From: Beroe forskalii
Lineage: Eukaryota > Ctenophora > Nuda > Beroida > Beroidae
Length of the DNA stretch: 64,000 nt
Reading direction: 5' to 3'
Assembly (NCBI GenBank): GCA_011033025.1
Contig: WFMF01000257.1
Location: forward strand, 1-64,000
In this document: one piece after another, positions 40,495 through 64,000 of the stretch
Numbering within the stretch: position 1 is the stretch's first letter
Layout: the number at the start of each line of letters is the position of its first letter
Position numbers and translations under genes: made by a program
The notes under the pieces: generated by a model
Seen by the model: the letters and a program-made list of their open reading frames with translations, nothing else
What the model was told of the DNA's origin: nothing
Database searches by the model: none

Positions 40495-40835
40495 GGACGT
40501 GAGGGGAAGTGAACTGAAGGTGAGGGGAAGATGGTGTGATGAGCAGAGTGAGGGGAATCAAGGTGAGGGGACGCTAACTGAGTGGAAGTAGAGTGAGGGG
40601 ATTTGGCTAATTAAGGTGAGGGGAAGTATGGTGAGGGGAAGAATGGTGAGGGAACTGTGGTGAGGGGAAGTATGGTGAGGGGAATTAACTAATTAATGTG
40701 AGGGGAAGTGTGGTAAGGAAAGTACGGTGAGGGGAAGTATGGTGAGGGGAAGTATGGTGAGGGGAAGTATGGTGAGGGGAAGTGTGGTGAGGGGAAGTAT
40801 GGTGAGGGGAAGTGTGGTGAGGGGAAGTGAGGTGA
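40495..40835. repeat. 15-bp GGTGAGGGGAAGTAT minisatellite
   Basis: About 17 copies, very uniform from 40725 to 40830 and more diverged upstream. It lies within the 1.25-kb transposon. The minus-strand frame gives an FPSPYFPSPHFPS peptide that is a by-product. Confidence 0.9.
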
Positions 40836-40956
40836 GAGAGGGCGATATGTCACACAAGGGGAAATACTGACCATTGTAAACTTTTGTAATATTTCAATGA
40901 TAGATAATTGATAGAAAATGCCTTTGGCAACAAAAGGATTGTTAATCAAATTAAAC

Positions 40957-53208: not shown

Positions 53209-53855
53209 TATGAGGAAGAATTATAAGTAGTAAGATTATTAAGACAAGAATTTCGAAACTGATGGATTAATTTTGCTTCTTATCTCTGTGAATGCACAAT
53301 CATGATAATATGTTGTTAAGTAAACGTATTGCCATTGGTTTTCACTTTCGAGTTAAATCATAATATTGGCTATTTTCACACCTTATGTCTCAATAGTCCA
53401 GCCATTCAGTGTACTATTAAAGATTAATATTGATATTTGACATTGATACTTGAATGCGATTCATGAGTGGGCTTATTACTTTATTACACCTCTTGTGTTT
53501 TACTTGATTAGTTGCTAAAATAGAAAAACTAGAAAATCCAGTCATAATTCATAGAAATAAAAAAGATTTTTATTTTTAATTTCTTTCGGAGTATTGAAGC
53601 TTATATTCTAAAATAGGTGTTCAATGATTAATCAGGTGAATGTATTCTATAGCTCTTTCAATCAGTATGCAGCCTTCCTGAGCAGTGGTTGATGAAACCA
53701 CAATCAAGCATTAATTCAAATTCTCTTGATCATGATGATTATTAAGTTATTAAATACATAGAATCATTTTATTCATTAAATTAACTAACTGAGGATTCCC
53801 GCCATGTAACTCTCCCTCCTCACTTGGTTCCTGTCAAGGATCACTACTTGCTAAT
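53209..53855. other. Intergenic stretch before GPN3
   Basis: AT-rich, no gene seen. Confidence 0.4.
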
Positions 53856-53977
53856 CACGTGACCTCCTGATATCACGTGACCTTCTGTAATCACGTGACC
53901 TTTAGTAACGTGTCCTGTAATCACGTGACCTTTACACCACGTGACCTTCTGTAATCACGTGACGTGAAGACCACGTG
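53856..53977 (+). promoter_or_regulatory. Array of seven CACGTG E-boxes abutting the GPN3 start codon
   Basis: CACGTG occurs at 53856, 53874, 53892, 53922, 53938, 53956 and 53972, mostly as TCACGTGACC, with a degenerate copy (TAACGTGTCC) in the one larger gap. Spacing is 16-18 bp, so it is also a small tandem repeat (CACGTGACCTTCTGTAAT). The last site ends one base before the ATG at 53978. TCACGTGAC is the binding site of USF/MITF/TFE-type bHLH-zip factors. Confidence 0.75.
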
Positions 53978-56900
53978 ATGCCACGTTACGCCCAGCTAGT
54001 GATGGGCCCTGCTGGTGCAGGGAAGTCCACCTACACGCACACCATAGAGCAGCATTACGCCATGTTGCGGAGGAAGGTCCACTGCATCAACCTAGATCCT
54101 GCAGCCGAGCACTTCGCTTACCCCGTCCAGTGCGACATTAGAGAGCTCATATCAGTGGATGACGTCATGGAGGACGGGGAGCTCAGGTTAGCTGATTACG
54201 TTACCATGATGATATAACTATATAACATAACTATGGCGATGACGTTACCACTAACCATGGCGATATAACACAACCATGTTTTCATACATCTTACACATCT
54301 TTACACCATCCTTTATGTCTATCACTGTTTTATGGGGGGTCCAAATTTGGGCAATCATGTTCAATTCTGGTTACCCTCATTTTCAGGAATTGGAAAAATT
54401 TCGTTGTCAAAAATTTCATTGCTTAAAATGATACAAAATTCTTATTCCTCAATCAGAAGCTTGAAAAGATTTGAAAACAGACTTATGATCCCCGACGCCC
54501 CTCCCCTGACCCCTTATATTGATGGCACTCCTTAACTGGACAGTGGACATACTATATTAGTATATTATTAACATAATATATGGTGGATTATAGAAAATTC
54601 CTTTTTGTTGTTGGAGGGATGGCTATTATTTAGCTAAATTGAACCAATCGCCTTTATTAAACAAAAGCAGGAGACAAAGTGGGGTTCTATCGTTAAAACT
54701 TAATTAGCTTATAATTGGTTTAGCATAATTATTAATTATAGGTTGTCAAGTTTCTCAGTAGAATGGTGTGAATACAGTAGGAGGCCTGGAAATGTTTTGT
54801 TTTAGTAATTATTTCTGTAATTCATGTCGCAAATAACCTCTGTTTTTTCCTTAATTAAACTGTTTTGTCCCGTGAGAAACAAAGCCATCATCTAATTATT
54901 TACACTCCCCAGCGCAGTATAAAACACTGCTATTTCTCCAACGGAGTCAGTTGACTAACATCTTTTCGACATGAAGACTTTTAGCACATTTATCGTTGTA
55001 ATCCTCGCCTTCACTGCAGCCCTAGCACATCATGTGCATGATGAGGAGAGTGGACATGCTCACATGGACTTGGAAAAAGTGGAAGATATCATCTCCAAGA
55101 TTCCTGATAAGGTGAAGGAAAGGATCACTAACTTTGCGGAAGAAGGAAGGTTCCCTATGGCGAGAGCCATCATTAACTCTGTGATGGTACGATCGTGCAT
55201 GGCAGGAATGAGGGAAAAAATTACTGATCTTCAGGAAAAAGGAGAGCTTCTTGGAATCTTGAAGGCCAAATTCCTGGACTTCATTGCCGATAAAACTGAT
55301 GAAGAATTGAAGGAAAAAATAAAGGAAATATGGGCAGATATTCCTGAAGAAGTCAAGGATGAGGCAAAAGATTCCATCACAGAAGAAAGGCTTGATGAAC
55401 TGAAGGAAATGATAAAGAACTTTGCCACTAGCAATGATGATGAAACACTCTCTGAAAAGTTGGCTGATCTTCTCAATGACACTCCTGATGAAGTGAAAGA
55501 CAGGGTAAAAGACAATGCAGAAGAAAGAGACTATCCAATCCTGAGAGCCATCATCAGAAGATTTGTGGTAAAAACTTGCATGGACAGAGTGGAGGAAAAA
55601 ATTACTAACTTTGCGGAAAAAGGAGATTATCCTGTCGCAAGAGCCATCATCAAGACTCTTATGGTGGGATCCTGCATGGTAGAAATGAGGGACACAATTA
55701 CTGATCTTCAGGAAACAGGAGAGCTTCTTGAGATTTTGAAGGCCAAATTCCTGGACTTCATTGCCGATAAAACTGATGAAGAATTGAAGGAAAAAATAAA
55801 GGAAGTATGGGCTGATATTCCTGAGGAAGTCAAGGATGAGGCAAAAGATTCCATCACAGAAGAAAGGCTTGATGAACTGAAGGAAATGATAAAGAACTTT
55901 GCCACTAGCAATGATGATGAAACACTCTCTGAAAAGTTGGCTGATCTTCTCAATGACACTCCTGATGAAGTGAAAGACAAGGTCAAAGACAATGCAGAAG
56001 AAAGAGACTATCCAATCCTAAGAGCCATCATCAGAAGATACGTGGTAAAAACTTGCATGGACAGAGTGGAGGAAAAAATTACTGCCTTCAAGGATCAGTA
56101 AGCTGAAGCAGGTATGGGAATGGAATTGGAAATATAAATGGAAATAGAAACATCAAGTAGCGAGTACCAAGAGCAAGAGGAATATTCTTTCTGTGCATCC
56201 TGAGTTGGAACTGCTTATTTAGTGATTGTTCCTCAATTTTTGCCTTTCAAAACTACATATTCTGAATATTATTTGCATGTTTATGTAGGTATTTAGGTCT
56301 ATATGTAAGTATCTAGAATGACTGGGATCAAGATTTATCGTGGCATGAATAAGTAATCATTAAAAGTAGAACCGAAGAAACTTTTAAATAATGAGAAGGT
56401 TAGACACCATATTAATTTTATATTCTATATTCGATTAGCTTAAACGAATTTTGTTTTATTTCTGTATGCTAACTCAATACTCATGCATTCAATTTGATTG
56501 GCCTTCATTAATTGTGGCGCTAATTCTATAATATTGATGATTTAAGATTTGGTGTATGTGACTGCAATCCAATGAAAATCCGATAAAAATTCTAAGAAAT
56601 TGTCTTGACCTGCTGAGGGAAATGCTGTAAACTCTGATCCATGTTTCCGACTGAGATACCCACTGAATTAGCATCAACACCGCTCATCACCATGTGGAGG
56701 CGTTTACTAAAGCTGAAGGATAGCTAGACCGACTTGAACTGTGTGAATTGCTAACCAGTTGAAGCTCAAAATTTGCAACTGACAAGTACCAGATTCCTTA
56801 GTTGCATGTTCTCGGTTCAGCAACTGGTTACCATTCAAATGAGCAAAATCCTCTCTTAAGATCCTCTTCCATGAAAGAGTGATAGTAAATTAAACACTGC

Positions 56901-57249
56901 CAATGGAGGTGGTAAAACTCGGGGTTTAACTGAGGTGGGGGTGTAATGGAATCGGTGCTCCAATCCCATTGTGTACTCAATTCAAAAACACAAGTCATGT
57001 TACCTCATGCAGGTATACCTGTTTCTAAAGATTGTTATGATTACAGATGGTTCCCACCAGGTTCGGACCTAACGGAGGTCTCGTGTTCTGCATGGAATAC
57101 CTCATCCAGAACACGAGTTGGTTGGAGGAGTGTCTGGGGGAAGTGGATGATGACTACTTCATCATCGACTGTCCGGGCCAGATAGAGATATACACTCACA
57201 TGGACCTCATGAGGAGGTTCATTTCAACTCTCGAGCAGTGGGATATCAG
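53978..57249 (+). CDS. GPN3: GPN-loop GTPase 3, coding exons 1 and 2 (3' end missing)
   Basis: GPN3 is a cytoplasmic GTPase needed to assemble and import RNA polymerase II. Exon 1 (53978-54186) starts [18 protein letters not shown], with the P-loop GPAGAGKST, then [10 protein letters not shown] and [14 protein letters not shown]. Exon 2 (57061-57249) starts after an AG acceptor, joins CTCAG to GTTCGG in frame (LRFGPNGG; this holds the Gly-Pro-Asn insert that names the family), continues [11 protein letters not shown] and ends LEQWDIR at CAG/GTGGGA. It covers about 133 residues, roughly half the protein. The downstream exons, with the NKxD-type motif, are not in the window. Intron 1 is 2.9 kb and hosts a complete gene. 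The exon 2 donor sits at the edge of a 2.5-kb array made from that same donor. The ATG follows the E-box array directly; an upstream in-frame GTG is not needed. Confidence 0.92.
54918..54954 (+). promoter_or_regulatory. TATA box and initiator of the nested gene
   Basis: TATAAAA at 54918-54924 and an initiator TCAGTT with its A at 54949 are 31 bases apart, the classic spacing. The implied 5' untranslated leader is only 22 bases before the ATG at 54971. It lies inside GPN3 intron 1. Confidence 0.75.
54971..56101 (+). CDS. Secreted, internally duplicated helical protein of unknown family, nested in GPN3 intron 1
   Basis: Intronless 376-residue protein on the same strand as GPN3. A signal peptide is clear ([19 protein letters not shown]), with likely cleavage before a His-rich start [12 protein letters not shown] that might bind metal. 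The rest is acidic, Lys/Glu-rich and predicted helical, with no membrane segment. It is a tandem duplication with a 159-residue (477-bp) period: residues 98-212 and 257-371 differ at only three positions, so the duplication is recent or kept uniform. A smaller motif, AEExxYPxxRAII then VVxxCM, occurs four times, each with one Cys (76, 203, 235, 362). Each large unit has one Trp (WADIPEEV). I recognise no family. Secreted nematode polyprotein-type lipid carriers have a comparable build (repeated helical units with one Trp), but I see no sequence match. Confidence 0.85.
   Translation: MKTFSTFIVVILAFTAALAHHVHDEESGHAHMDLEKVEDIISKIPDKVKERITNFAEEGRFPMARAIINSVMVRSCMAGMREKITDLQEKGELLGILKAKFLDFIADKTDEELKEKIKEIWADIPEEVKDEAKDSITEERLDELKEMIKNFATSNDDETLSEKLADLLNDTPDEVKDRVKDNAEERDYPILRAIIRRFVVKTCMDRVEEKITNFAEKGDYPVARAIIKTLMVGSCMVEMRDTITDLQETGELLEILKAKFLDFIADKTDEELKEKIKEVWADIPEEVKDEAKDSITEERLDELKEMIKNFATSNDDETLSEKLADLLNDTPDEVKDKVKDNAEERDYPILRAIIRRYVVKTCMDRVEEKITAFKDQ
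56359..56364 (+). other. Possible poly(A) signal ATTAAA of the nested gene
   Basis: ATTAAA about 260 bases after the stop. It is plausible, not proven. Confidence 0.3.
56604..57249 (+). repeat. Left arm of a ~650-bp inverted duplication (with GPN3 exon 2)
   Basis: From CTTGACC at 56604 to the exon 2 end this arm pairs with 61115-61767. It covers the last ~450 bases of intron 1 and all of exon 2. Exon identity is 182 of 189. The intron part has more changes, including a replaced patch just before exon 2. Confidence 0.85.
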
Positions 57250-59740
57250 GTGGGAGCAGTGGGATATGAAGTGGGAGCAGTGGGATATCAGGTGGGAGCA
57301 GTGGGATATCAGGTGGGAGCAGTGGGATATCAGGTGGGAGCAGTGGGATATCAGGTGGGAGCAGTGGGATATCAGGTGGGGTTGTGAGCAGTGGGATATC
57401 AGGTGGGAGCAGTGGGATATCAGGTGGGAGCAGTGTGGGATATCAGGTGGGAGCAGTGGGATATCAGGTGGGAGCAGTGGGATATCAGGTGGGAGCAGTG
57501 GGATATCAGGTGGGAGCAGTGGGATATCAGGTGGGAGCAGTGGGATATCAGGTGGGAGTGGGATATCAGGTGGGAGCAGTGGGATATCAGGTGGGAGCAG
57601 TGGGATATCAGGTGGGAGCAGTGGGATATCAGGTGGGAGCAGTGGGATATCAGGTGGGAGCAGTGGGATATCAGGTGGAGCAGTGGGATATCAGGTGGGA
57701 GCAGTGGGATATCAGGTGGGAGCAGTGGGATATCAGGTGGGAGCAGTGGGATATCAGGTGGGAGCAGTGGGATATCAGGTGGGAGCAGTGGGATATCAGG
57801 TGGGAGCAGTGGGATATCAGGTGGGAGCAGTGGGATATCAGGTGGGAGCAGTGGGATATCAGGTGGGAGCAGTGGGATATCAGGTGGGAGCAGTGGGATA
57901 TCAGGTGGGAGCAGTGGGATATCAGGTGGGAGCAGTGGGATATCAGGTGGGAGCAGTGGGATATCAGGTGGGAGCAGTGGGATATCAGGTGGGAGCAGTG
58001 GGATATCAGGTGGGAGCAGTGGGATATCAGGTGGGAGCAGTGGGATATCAGGTGGGAGCAGTGGGATATCAGGTGGGAGCAGTGGGATATCAGGTGGGAT
58101 ATCAGGTGGGAGCAGTGGGATATCAGGTGGGAGCAGTGGGATATCAGGTGGGAGCAGTGGGATATCAGGTGGGAGCAGTGGGATATCAGGTGGGAGCAGT
58201 GGGATATCAGGTGGGAGCAGTGGGATATCAGGTGGGAGCAGTGGGATATCAGGTGGGAGCAGTGGGATATCAGGTGGGAGCAGTGGGATATCAGGTGGGA
58301 GCAGTGGGATATCAGGTGTGGGAGCAGGTGGGATATCAGGTGGGAGCAGTGGGATATCAGGTGGGGAACAGTGGGATATCAGGTGGGAGCAGTGGGATAT
58401 CAGGTGGGAGCAGTGGGATATCAGGTGGGAGCAGTGGGATATCAGGTGGGAGCAGTGGGATATCAGGTGGGAGCAGGGATATCAGGTACAGGGGATATCA
58501 GGTGGGAGCAGTGGGATATCAGGTGGGAGCAGTGGGATATCAGGTGGGATATCAGGTGGGATATCAGGTGGGAGCAGTGGGATATCAGGTGGGAGCAGTG
58601 GGATATCAGGTGGGAGCAGTGGGATATCAGGTGGGAGCAGTGGGATATCAGGTGGGATATCAGGTGGGAGCAGTGGGATATCAGGTGGGATATCAGGTGG
58701 GGGATATCAGGTGGGTGGGATATCAGGTGGGCAGTGGGATGGGATATGGGGTGGGAGCAGTGGGATATCAGGTGGGAGCAGTGGGATATCAGGTGGGAGC
58801 AGTGGGATATCACTTATCAGGTGGGAGCAGTGGGATATCAGGTGGGAGCAGTGGGATATCAGGTGGGAGCAGTGGGATATCAGGTGGGAGCAGTGGGATA
58901 TCAGGTGGGAGCAGTGGGATATCAGGTGGGAGCAGTGGGATATCAGGTGGGAGCAGTGGGATATCAGGTGGGAGCAGTGGGATATCAGGTGGGAGCAGTG
59001 GGATATCAGGTGGGAGCAGTGGGATATCAGGTGGGAGCAGTGGGATATCAGGTGGGAGCAGTGGGATATCAGGTGGGAGCAGTGGGATATCAGGTGGGAG
59101 CAGTGGGATATCAGGTGGGAGCAGTGGGATATCAGTGGGAGGTGGGATATCAGGTGGGAGCAGTGGGATATCAGGTGGGAGCAGAGTGGGATATCAGGTG
59201 GGAGCAGTGGGATATCAGGTGGGAGCAGTGGGATATCAGGTGGGAGCAGTGGGATATCAGGTGGGAGCAGTGGGATATCAGGTGGGAGCAGTGGGATATC
59301 AGGTGGGAGCAGTGGGATATCAGGTGGGAGTGGGATATCAGGTGGGGGGATATCAGGTGGGAGCAGTGGGATATCAGGTGGGAGCAGTGGGATATCAGGT
59401 GGGAGCAGTGGGATATCAGGTGGGAGCAGTGGGATATCAGGTGGGCTGGTGGGATATCAGGTGGGAGCAGTGGGATATCAGGTGGGAGCAGTGGGATATC
59501 AGGTGGGAGCAGTGGGATATCAGGTGGGAGCAGTGGGATATCAGGTGGGAGCAGTGGGATATCAGGTGGGAGCAGTGGGATATCAGGTGGGAGCAGTGGG
59601 ATATCAGGTGGGAGCAGTGGGATATCAGGTGGGAGCAGTGGGATATCAGGTGGGAGCAGTGGGATATCAGGTGGGAGCAGTGGGATATCAGGTGGAGCAG
59701 TGGGATATCAGGTGGGGAGCAGTGGGATATCAGGTGGGGA
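57250..59740 (+). repeat. 21-bp tandem array built from the GPN3 exon 2 splice donor
   Basis: About 115-120 units, each GTGG followed by GAGCAGTGGGATATCAG. The 17-base part is identical to the last 17 bases of exon 2, so nearly every unit boundary recreates CAG/GTGGGA. Most units are exact. Variants lose 1, 3 or 9 bases, and the first repeat after the exon has GAA for CAG. No unit contains a stop, so all three plus frames stay open ([21 protein letters not shown]); the 800-900-residue frames are by-products unless donors inside the array are skipped. GGG triplets every 6-9 bases make the plus strand G-rich. Confidence 0.95.
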
Positions 59741-59890
59741 TAGGACATCAGGTGGGGGATATCAGGTGGGAGCAGTGGGATATCAGGTGGTTGTGGGATA
59801 TCATCAGGTCAGGGGAGCAGTGGGATATCAGGTGGGGAGCACTGGGGTATCAGGTGACCCCTGACATCATGGTTGGGACACAGATACCTA
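59741..59890 (+). repeat. Decaying edge of the 21-bp array
   Basis: The units become irregular (GTGGTTGTGGGATATCATCAG and similar, split here by indels) before the motif ends near 59850. Confidence 0.7.
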
Positions 59891-60345
59891 TAGACTAAGT
59901 CAGGTAGCAGTGACCTACTACATTTTGTTCGGTGTTGCCATACTAGCCACAGGGGTTAGGGTTGCGCAGGACCTAAATCATTACTTGGCTTAGGGCATCA
60001 GGTGGTCCTCGATATTCTTTTAGGGTTTGGCAGTGTACCTATAGACTCAACTTGGGTTTAGGGTTTGGCAGTGTACCATGACATTACTTGTTCAGGGTTT
60101 TCCAGGGACCTACAACTCATTACTTTTTTAGGCTCAGCAGTGACCCACTAGACCACTATTTGTTCAGGGTTAGCAGTATAAAAGCTTACTTGTTAGGTTT
60201 GGCAGTGCACCTACAAACTCATTACTTCTTCAGGCTAGTTTAGTGACCTACCCAAACTCATTTTACTTGTTAGGTTTGGGGCAGTGCACCACTAGACTCA
60301 TATTTGTTAGGCCTGCGCAGTTTCATAAACGACTTGTTAGGTGCT
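59890..60345. repeat. Degenerate ~45-60-bp minisatellite (TTAGGTTTGGCAGTG)
   Basis: Eight to nine diverged copies of a unit with TTAGGTTTGGCAGTGCACC, then ACTAGACTCAT and TACTTGTT. It separates the forward and inverted 21-bp arrays. Confidence 0.75.
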
Positions 60346-61114
60346 CCACACTGATGTCCCACCAGCACCTGATATCCCACTGCTCCCCTGATATCCCTGC
60401 TCACCTGATATCCCTGCCCACCCCTGATATCCCTGCTCACCTGATATCCCACTGCCACCTGATGTCCCACTGCTCCCACCTGATATCCCTGCTCCCCTGA
60501 TATCCTGCTCCACCTGATATCCCTGCTCCCACCTGATATCCCACTGCTCCCACCTGATATCACTGCTCCCACCTGATGTCCACTGCTCCACCTGATATCC
60601 CACTCTCCCACCTGATATCCCACTGCGCAAACCCTGATATCCCACTGCTCCCACGATGTCCGCTGCTCACCTGATATCCCGCCACACCTGATGTCCACTG
60701 CTCACGGTATCCCAGCCACCTGATATCCGCAACCACCTGATATCCACTGCTCCCACCTGATATCCGCAACCACCTGATGTCCCACCCACACCTGCTCCGC
60801 AGCCACCTGATATCCCGCTGCCACCGATATCCGCAACTCACCTGATATCCCAACCACCTGATATCCGCTGCCACTGTCCGCAGCCACCTGATATCCCGCA
60901 ACCACCTGATATCACTGCTCACCTGATATCCCGCAACCACCTGATATCCCAACACTGCTGATATCCACTGCTCCCACCTGATATCACTGCCCCACCTGAT
61001 ATCCCACTGCTCCCACCTGATATCCCACTGCTCCCACCTGATATCACCAGCCACCTGATGATATCCGCACTCCCACCTGATATCCCTGCTCCCACTGATG
61101 TCCCACTGCTCCAC
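60346..61114 (-). repeat. Inverted, decayed 21-bp array
   Basis: Reverse-complement units (CTGATATCCCACTGCTCCCAC with frequent losses, split over positions) run up to the inverted exon copy. There are many small deletions not divisible by three, in contrast to the uniform left array. This may be real decay or low consensus quality. Confidence 0.85.
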
Positions 61115-61303
61115 CTGATATCCCACTGCTCGAGAGTTGAAATGAACCTCCTCATGAGGTCCATGTGAGTGTAGATCTCTATCTGGCCCGGACAGTCGAT
61201 GATGAAGTAGTCATCGTCCACCTCGCCCAGACACTCCTCCAGCCAACTTGTGTTCTGGATGAGGTATTCCATGCAGAACACTAGACCTCCGTTAGGTCCG
61301 AAC
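61115..61303 (-). CDS. GPN3: Second, inverted copy of GPN3 exon 2
   Basis: Read on the minus strand, an AG acceptor (CCTCCCAG) precedes 63 codons encoding exactly the same residues as 57061-57249, ending LEQWDIR at CAG/GTGGAG. Seven bases differ and all seven are synonymous (for example CTC/CTA, ACG/ACA, TTG/CTG, GGG/GGC). This shows it has been under protein-level selection since divergence, as expected for a second allele or a working paralogue, not a dead fragment. No matching exon 1 or exon 3 is found within the window on this side. Confidence 0.8.
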
Positions 61304-61767
61304 CTGGGAGGAACCATTGTAATCTAACAATCTTTGAAACCCGGTTTTGCCAAAGGGAAAAGACTTGTGTTTTTGAATTGAGTACACAATGGGATTGGAG
61401 CACCGATTCCATTACACCCCCACCTCAGTTAAACCCCGAGTTTAACCACCTCCATTGGCAGTGTTTAATTTACTATCACTCTTTCATGAAAGAGGATCTT
61501 AAGAGATGATTTTGCTCATTTGAATGGTAACCAGTTGCTGAACCGAGAACATGCAACTAAGGAATCTGGTACAGTGGTACTTGTCAGTTGCAAATTTTAA
61601 GCTTCAACTGGTTAGCAATTCACACAGTTCAAGTCGGTCTAGCTATCCTTCAGCTTTAGTAAACGCCTCCACATGGTGATGAGCGGTGTTGATGCTAATT
61701 CAGTGGGTATTTCATCTCAGTCGGAAACATGGATCAGAGTTTACAGCATTTCCTTCAGCTGGTCAAG
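61115..61767 (-). repeat. Right arm of the ~650-bp inverted duplication
   Basis: Reverse complement of 56604-57249, ending at GGTCAAG (61761-61767). Beyond that the sequences are unrelated. Confidence 0.85.
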
Positions 61768-61867
61768 GCTCAAGAAGCACTCTTACTCTCTTTTCACTCC
61801 GCATACCCGCATACTGGTCCCTGTCTTATTATTCAGGGAGTTTCTCTTAGTGGAATTACACGAAGTG

Positions 61868-62045
61868 GAGGTGGTCTAGGCTCTGGAAGGCCACTGAGCT
61901 CTGCAGCAAGGTGGAAGTGGTCTAGGCTCTGGAAGGCCACTGAGCTCTGCAGCAAGGTGGAGGTGGTCTAGGCTCTGGAAGGCCACTGAGCTCTGCAGCA
62001 AGGTGGAGGTGGTCTAGGCTTCTGGAAGGCCAATTGAGCCTGCAA
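61868..62045. repeat. Four copies of a 46-bp tandem repeat
   Basis: GTCTAGGCTCTGGAAGGCC followed by ACTGAGCTCTGCAGCAAGG repeats with GTCTAGG at 61874, 61920, 61966 and 62012, an exact 46-bp period. The last copy is diverged. Confidence 0.9.
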
Positions 62046-62117
62046 AGGTGGGGATTAGAAGCCTAAAATTGAAATTAAAAAACCAAGCCCAAGATCGCAA
62101 ATTTAGGGTAGCTTGGT

Positions 62118-63007: not shown

Positions 63008-63389
63008 CAATCCTGTCTTTGACTTCTATACACTTTTCTTTATTGGATAATGGATATGGCTCAGGAACTTTATTTCCACTTTTTAGTAGACACTTCGACA
63101 TTTGAATTTTTGGCCCTCACGAAGCTGATTCATCCTTTTCATCTTTAACTTTGTATTTCTTGGCTTAGAATTTAGGGGACCTCTTAGTTTTGCATGTAGT
63201 TCTTGAATTATTCATTTTGAAAGATTTCGGGGATTTTCCAGTAGAAGGTTTTATTCGACTTATTATTTCTGTAATCCACTAATAGAACTATTTCTATTTA
63301 TTTCTAGCATCTAGTCACTATTCACCAAGCAATGAGTAAAGGTCACATCATTTCAGTAAGGTTCTTTGATTTTTTGGAAAAGAAAACTC

Positions 63390-64000
63390 TTTAAAGGGGG
63401 GGTTACTTGTGTGGCCAATGACGGAAAAAAAACCCCAAAAGTTTTTAAAAATTTCAAATTTTGGGTTTTAATGGGTCAAAAAATGGATGTGAAAAGGATC
63501 AGGGGAGAAAATTTTTGGTAAATTTGGATGGGAGACGAAATGGGTCAGAAGGACGGGGGGGCCCCTTTTTGGGGTCAGGTGGGTTTCCGGGGAGACGGGA
63601 AGGTCAGGGAAGGACCAGGCGGGGGAACCAGTGGGTCAGGTGGGACCAGGACGCCAGTACCCCCATAAAATCAGGGGGGGAACCAGTAGGTCAGGTGGGA
63701 TCAGGGACCCAATGGGTTTGGGTAGGATGGGGAGCCAGTGGGTCAGGTGGGACCCGGGAGACGCCAGTAGGCGGTGATTGGAGGATCCCCAAAGGTTGGG
63801 GGTGGGACGGAAAACACGGGAAGGGCAGGGGGGGTGGGAACCCTTTTTAGATTAGGTGGGATAAAGATACCACAAGGAAAGGTAGGATCAAAAGATGCCA
63901 TTAGGTAAAGGGGGGGATCACGATCCCTGGGGTGGGACGGAGCCCCAAGCTGTGGGTCAGGTGGGACGGGAATTGGTGGTATTTTTGGAGATAAAAGGGT
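63390..64000. other. G-rich, homopolymer-rich window end (possible low-quality sequence)
   Basis: Dense runs of G, A and T and degenerate GGTCAGGTGGGA units (about 63600-63980). The open frame at 63461-63850 is Gly/Arg-rich and composition-driven. It could be a degenerate minisatellite or an error-rich read end. Confidence 0.5.

Follow-up and report, generated by a model that had tools for sequence, protein, structure and literature searches.

Canestro et al. reportedly described in 2002 the amphioxus structures known as 'mirages'. Mirages are minisatellite-like tandem copies of an exon/intron boundary, exemplified by Adh3, the globins BflGb6 and BflGb9, TnC and PGBD5, with units of 10–72 bp in Adh3 and of 150–160 bp in BflGb6, whose two haplotypes contain six and three units (PMC3087553, PMC3902484). 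The authors state that their data suggest regular splicing to be undisturbed, and they propose mirages as a route of intron gain (PMC3087553, PMC3902484). Here we describe a structure of this kind in the ctenophore Beroe forskalii, within a window of 64,000 nucleotides (positions 1 to 64,000 of contig WFMF01000257.1, assembly GCA_011033025.1) that carries the first two exons of a GPN3 gene. The contig carrying the window is called C311 below, and window positions are C311 positions. The 5' splice donor of GPN3 exon 2 is present there as a tandem array of about 124 copies, and we consider it likely that this array is a mirage, a minisatellite with its origin at the boundary of exon 2 and intron 2, that it is spliced out as intron, and that it reflects a process that recurs in this genome.

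Other precedents exist outside the lancelets. Intron 7 of the human F7 gene also carries repeats, in fewer than ten copies; Borensztajn et al. reportedly worked on them in 2006. They are 37-bp repeats located at the 5' splice site, and the most upstream donor alone is normally used (PMC6627357). This is a donor array at a 5' splice site, like that of GPN3, but it concerns one junction of one human gene. The model of Rogers, as cited in PMC3087553, derives new introns from the tandem duplication of AGGT-containing segments; tandem duplication has reportedly also given rise to an intron in the potato RNA-dependent RNA polymerase gene (PMC4974935), and tandem repeats at human exon–intron boundaries have been discussed as a possible origin of introns (PMC2812944). 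In the Rogers model, as at GPN3, tandem duplication at a splice motif yields intronic sequence; at GPN3, however, an existing intron has apparently been expanded, and the birth of an intron is not shown. The amphioxus and F7 repeats contradict the earlier note on this DNA, whose author knew of no described case of an amplified exon/intron junction. What is new is the ctenophore host, the copy numbers, and the fact that a single intron probably carries an array at each of its ends. The search of titles and abstract openings in a partial library found no report of junction minisatellites in ctenophores.

The donor array occupies positions 57233–59856 on the forward strand and has a period of 21, 124 copies and 91% matches according to Tandem Repeats Finder (TRF). 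Its unit, GAGCAGTGGGATATCAG/GTGG, consists of 17 nt of exon 2 followed by the first four bases of the intron, and thus spans the exon/intron boundary. The exon terminates in ..GAG CAG TGG GAT ATC AG/GTGGGA; the last 17 nt of the exon form the start of the array, and the first unit is the authentic exon 2/intron 2 junction. The window contains 119 exact copies of the core ATATCAGGTGG, 92 of the 118 intervals between them being exactly 21 nt, and splice signals are retained in many units, the array holding 124 CAGGTG motifs and 108 copies of CAGGTGGGA. These counts bear out the amplified splice donor proposed earlier from the sequence alone, together with its 21-nt unit, in which the exon frame is free of stops. 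The array had been placed at 57230–59740; it continues about 115 bp further, to 59856. With up to two mismatches allowed, the 21-mer matches the 216-Mb assembly 101 times in forward and nine times in reverse orientation, whereas the reversed pattern, used as a control, gives no match. A recount on C311 gave 101 forward and eight reverse matches, the ninth reverse match lying elsewhere or having been counted differently. Because the unit carries the codons of a conserved protein stretch, it derives from the exon and is no wandering satellite.

The two exons belong to a well-recognizable gene. Exon 1 (53978–54186, forward strand, 209 nt) runs from the ATG to ..GAGCTCAG and matches PF03029 at 53999–54190; it is in frame with exon 2 (57061–57249, forward strand, 189 nt), which matches the same model at 57047–57244 and ends in ..EQWDI plus AG at CAG/GTGGGA. 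The translation of both exons, together with nine residues proposed to begin exon 3, is colinear with the GPN-loop GTPase 3 chain of a PDB entry (residues 1–142 on 1–142, E 8.9e-66). The GPN1 chain of the same entry reaches only E 8.6e-14, so the product is closest to GPN3. A 15/18-bp repeat containing CACGTG (53852–53963, forward strand, by TRF; inverted counterpart at C311:69682–69748) lies directly upstream of the start codon and reaches it, so that a minisatellite borders the coding sequence on its 5' side too.

A second array was found on another contig, C693, where 141 copies of a 40-bp unit (C693:52,871–58,494) stand just before exons resembling those of GPN3. The unit contains TTTGTTCAG/GGTTTGCGCAGTGTACC, coding for R/VCAVYLLDS (..FR/VCAVYLLDS), which is the expected start of exon 3; exons 1 and 2 alone score 159 bits with PF03029, and 175 bits once VCAVYLLDS is appended. 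A 25-base core of the unit, with up to two mismatches, occurs 129 times in forward and never in reverse orientation in the whole assembly, each time on C693. The 40-bp unit probably represents the exon 3 acceptor plus the beginning of the exon, that is, the counterpart of the donor array of exon 2. Degraded units of the same kind follow the donor array inside the window, at 59870–60345 on the gene strand: the best nine blastn alignments to the C693 unit show 74–84% identity, with E values down to 4e-18, and a wrapped alignment gives 70% identity with 72 substitutions, 89 deletions and seven insertions. These degraded units behind the donor array link C311 to C693, and we infer that the two contigs are physically linked. 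On this evidence GPN3 intron 2 would comprise, at least in part, first a donor array and then an acceptor array.

The remainder of GPN3 was sought with the C-terminal half of human GPN3. The best match of this query is GPN2 on C680 (E 2.9e-6), and its match on C693 is weak (E 0.04); over that part it scores 21.5 bits, whereas GPN2 reaches 18.3. Two exon-like stretches there, at C693:58,656–58,763 and 59,748–59,849, each show 41–44% identity to human GPN3, and these residue matches and their position make it probable that they belong to GPN3. Three stretches covering the loci of GPN1 and GPN2, 26.0 kb in all once overlap is removed, showed no array at the main threshold, and a lower threshold yielded only short repeats or repeats of few copies.

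Arrays of this type are not restricted to GPN3. C311 carries 67 minisatellite arrays, which make up 12% of the contig, and 56 of these (period of at least 8, at least three copies) were inspected, the full flanks being viewed for seven and the edges for open frames in all 56. Six of the 56 bear junctions, a count that may miss others: two GPN3 donor arrays, two copies of a donor array at a RhoGAP exon a (C311:142751–142996 and 171366–172903), a donor array at RhoGAP exon b (42 bp x 31.5, C311:165639–166961), and an acceptor array before an exon c (36 bp x 33, C311:161310–162418). Exons a and b join into one continuous RhoGAP match (positions 47–122, E 4.7e-18), and the exon-b unit holds an in-frame TAG. 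The coding-like exon c, after the acceptor array, gave no Pfam match, so its membership in the RhoGAP gene is presumed. The two copies of exon a with its donor array lie about 30 kb apart (C311:142.7–143.2 kb and 171.4–173.2 kb), as a local duplication or an unpurged haplotype.

A less biased sample comprised 14 of the 33 RhoGAP exon matches in the genome, located on eight contigs besides C311 (three other matches are the C311 exons themselves, and 16 were left out). Junction arrays are clear at two of the 14: a donor array on contig C802 (65 bp x at least 8.6) and an acceptor array on contig C640 (36 bp x 12.6), in which every unit contains the pyrimidine tract, CAG and the opening bases of the exon. 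One further array, at the C802 exon 35–82, adjoins the acceptor without containing it and is excluded from the count. In the other 11 exons no array overlaps the domain-matched part of the exon.

Several other arrays on C311 were set aside or are simply noted. Arrays with donor-like units at 116443, 141188, 156569 and 183635 were excluded, as no flanking exon is recognizable. At 40579–40836 a 15-bp GGTGAGGGGAAGTAT array has a donor-like sequence in each unit, and no exon was identified alongside. On the minus-strand side, a reverse-transcriptase-like frame, recognized by eye at C311:151667–152108, adjoins a 27-bp array. The frame VGEYLVLDTNVLIHDLPFVKDLVE at C311:120536–120632 (weak PIN_4 match, E 0.007, below the cut-off) adjoins a 30-bp repeat and is possibly an exon beside an array.

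The arrangement suggests the following origin. A segment of 17 exon bases and four intron bases would have been duplicated in tandem; slippage or unequal exchange would then have enlarged the repeat in the direction of the intron, while a single intact junction stayed beside the exon. The exon-proximal donor would be paired with the last acceptor, the array would be removed as intron, and a normal GPN3 would be made. The same process has probably acted at the other end of the intron, on the exon 3 acceptor, and at the RhoGAP junctions. Such an array could be tolerated because the intact junction at the exon edge is most likely the one used, the repeats leaving with the intron, and the protein is probably unchanged. 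We infer use of the first donor, neutrality and the mode of expansion; the pairing of first donor with last acceptor is modelled on the F7 and amphioxus precedents. An acceptor wrongly chosen within the C693 array would bring in 40 extra nt and cause a frameshift, and a stop is present in three added 40-bp units.

The unit length first suggested a different role. Since 21 is a multiple of three and the unit is stop-free in the exon frame, any of the 108 copies of CAGGTGGGA might be used as an alternative donor and add some number of seven-residue blocks to GPN3, giving the ladder of isoforms imagined in the earlier note. We regard this as very unlikely. In F7 the proximal site is used, and in amphioxus splicing proceeds normally; the other junction units measure 40, 49 or 65 bp, or contain in-frame stops, so that a stop-free, frame-keeping 21-mer is more readily taken as coincidence than as design; and the inserted residues would presumably sit in the conserved GTPase fold. 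Still more improbable, to a degree that leaves it almost out of consideration, is a second proposal, that the array in the pre-mRNA titrates the U1 small nuclear ribonucleoprotein, or regulates GPN3 through non-productive U1 binding. Its appeal lies in the roughly 119–124 U1-type sites within a single intron, yet a single housekeeping pre-mRNA would hardly matter against the U1 pool of a cell, and we found no support for such a sink.

Several observations weigh against a recurrent junction minisatellite that is removed with GPN3 intron 2. The GPN3 gene is not in one piece, as exons 1 and 2 are on C311 and those that follow are probably on C693. Once joined, the exons on C693 reach 24.2 bits with PF03029, under the cut-off of 27, which makes their assignment to GPN3 probable and not proven. 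The residues that should follow VCAVYLLDS were found nowhere, and the C693 array does not run on into a recognizable remainder of exon 3. Moreover, the 40-bp unit can be read entirely as exon (VCAVYLLDSLFVQ), in which case the array would repeat exon sequence rather than an acceptor. The donor immediately after RhoGAP exon b has GAGAGT in place of GTGAGT, and use of the first donor is therefore doubtful there, unless the sequence is in error or another donor is used. Finally, strong donors are not significantly enriched in the C311 array units: scored with approximate weights, seven of 40 units reach at least 7 (shuffle mean 4.1, P 0.11), nine reach at least 6 (mean 6.5, P 0.18) and three reach at least 8 (mean 2.1, P 0.35). 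A mechanism that targets donors is thus not demonstrated.

The structure of the locus also calls for caution, because the window arrays are rich in indels, exons 1 and 2 form an inverted pair through a noisy join, and the later exons are on another contig, so that the true structure and length are uncertain. C311 bears two tail-to-tail copies of exons 1 and 2. By blastn the left arm (53489–57298) matches 70103–67110 and 61767–61070 inversely with 91–93% identity, the right arm being interrupted by a 5.3-kb insertion. All parts of the second copy are on the reverse strand: a noisy donor array (60346–61129, by TRF and core count); exon 2 (61115–61303; PF03029 at 61117–61305), which encodes the same protein; and the 3' part of intron 1 (61304–61767, by blastn), after which the arm resumes outside the window, at C311:67110–70103. 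A comparison of 398 coding nt shows 14 synonymous and no nonsynonymous changes between the arms, and this solely synonymous divergence indicates that both copies were functional until recently.

That record bears on another reading, in which both copies on C311 are dead fragments and the array is a product of pseudogene decay. Both copies do end at exon 2 on this contig; against such decay stand the purely synonymous differences and the PF03029 search, which gave no further GPN3-type copy of exons 1 and 2. GPN3 is expected to be essential. We judge decay improbable.

There is, by our estimate, an even chance that the assembly is in part artefactual, with the palindrome and some of the array length arising from mis-joined or unpolished long reads over a real junction array, a possibility compatible with the mirage origin preferred here. 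The donor arrays of the two GPN3 copies measure 2.6 and 0.8 kb, the second being unpolished. Compared with its own unit, the window array at 57233–59720 shows 12 substitutions and 81 indels, and its last 136 bp are poorer (10 substitutions, 16 indels); the inverted array at 60350–61129 has 81% identity with 51 substitutions, 120 deletions and one insertion, and deletions also exceed insertions in the degraded 40-bp units (89 to seven). In the C693 array, by contrast, substitutions prevail: there are 147, of which 120 fall at two C/T positions, against 33 indels. Variation dominated by indels suggests sequencing or consensus error: the donor array in the window may be truly near-uniform, and its frame-breaking units are not to be trusted. 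The units with one deleted base, once read as real breaks of the GPN3 frame, are likelier errors of this kind. An artefact would also account for both copies of exons 1 and 2 meeting on C311 when the later exons are on C693, and for sequence at 63.4–65.4 kb that looks unpolished. The arms, however, are not a single fold-back read, in view of their 91–93% identity and their exclusively synonymous coding differences. Nor are they simple alleles: allelic haplotypes were rejected as the source of the palindrome, since no colinear homology was found past 53489/70103, where a comparison of the whole contig at E 1e-10 gave scattered matches only and one of 10.6 kb against 15 kb of the near flanks at E 0.01 gave a fading edge alone. 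Similar arrays recur on C693, C802 and C640, and C311 has a single run of N, at 108348–108447. The junction of the arms, situated in the noisiest sequence, may represent a mis-assembly or a real inverted duplication.

The sequence from 63380 to 64000, continuing to C311:65400, lies inside the 5.3-kb insertion, is of poor quality by eye and seems to be an unpolished minisatellite; a 46-bp repeat flanks it at 61865–62051 and 65756–66433. In the right arm (reverse strand) a 17-bp direct repeat, CAGGTTCGGACCTAACG, flanks intron 1 at the end of exon 1 and the start of exon 2 (C311:69446–69462 and 61290–61306); the left arm has a copy at 57058–57074, and its donor-side copy has diverged. Such a repeat around intron 1 fits the expectation if that intron arose or changed by tandem duplication. 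Intron 1 also contains, on the same strand, a gene (54971–56101) that has two internal repeats of 477 bp and encodes a small protein of secreted appearance, and which recurs in the inverted arm at about C311:67600–68720. Its product matches five unrelated Pfam models above the cut-off (e.g. MukF_C and DUF4404), which we take as chance likeness to charged helical repeats.

Other parts of the assembly have ctenophore features. A 402-aa segment of an ionotropic glutamate receptor (iGluR), a single nuclear gene, has as its best PDB match the ML032222a iGluR (E 1.5e-63), presumably from the ctenophore Mnemiopsis. In the mitochondrial contig (13,339 bp), a 2.8-kb stretch of 20% GC that bears COX1 uses TGA at four W sites, AGA at conserved R sites and ATA at conserved I sites, as judged by eye against COX1 motifs. 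Such codon usage is that of mitochondrial code 4, which has been reported for ctenophores (PMC6991124). The AT-richness and the short contig also fit a ctenophore host.

The GPN3 arrays share with the amphioxus mirages boundary repeats on the 5' or 3' side and AG/GT signals in many units. They differ in their ctenophore host, in copy number (about 124 and 141, against six and three in the BflGb6 haplotypes) and in lying at the two ends of, probably, the same intron. More tentatively, and short of what we would expect to prove true, splice-junction amplification might be genome-wide and ongoing, enlarging and perhaps giving birth to introns through multiplication of their own splice sites; introns such as GPN3 intron 2 could then offer more than 100 nearly identical competing sites at either end, with upstream-first choice of donors and downstream-last choice of acceptors keeping splicing accurate. 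Loci with junction arrays are a warning, as assemblies and gene models break there. If confirmed, the arrays would extend a lancelet phenomenon to a distant phylum and would suggest that junction minisatellites are recurrent wherever genomes are rich in minisatellites; they would also be natural tests of how the spliceosome chooses one site among about a hundred nearly identical ones, at both ends of an intron.

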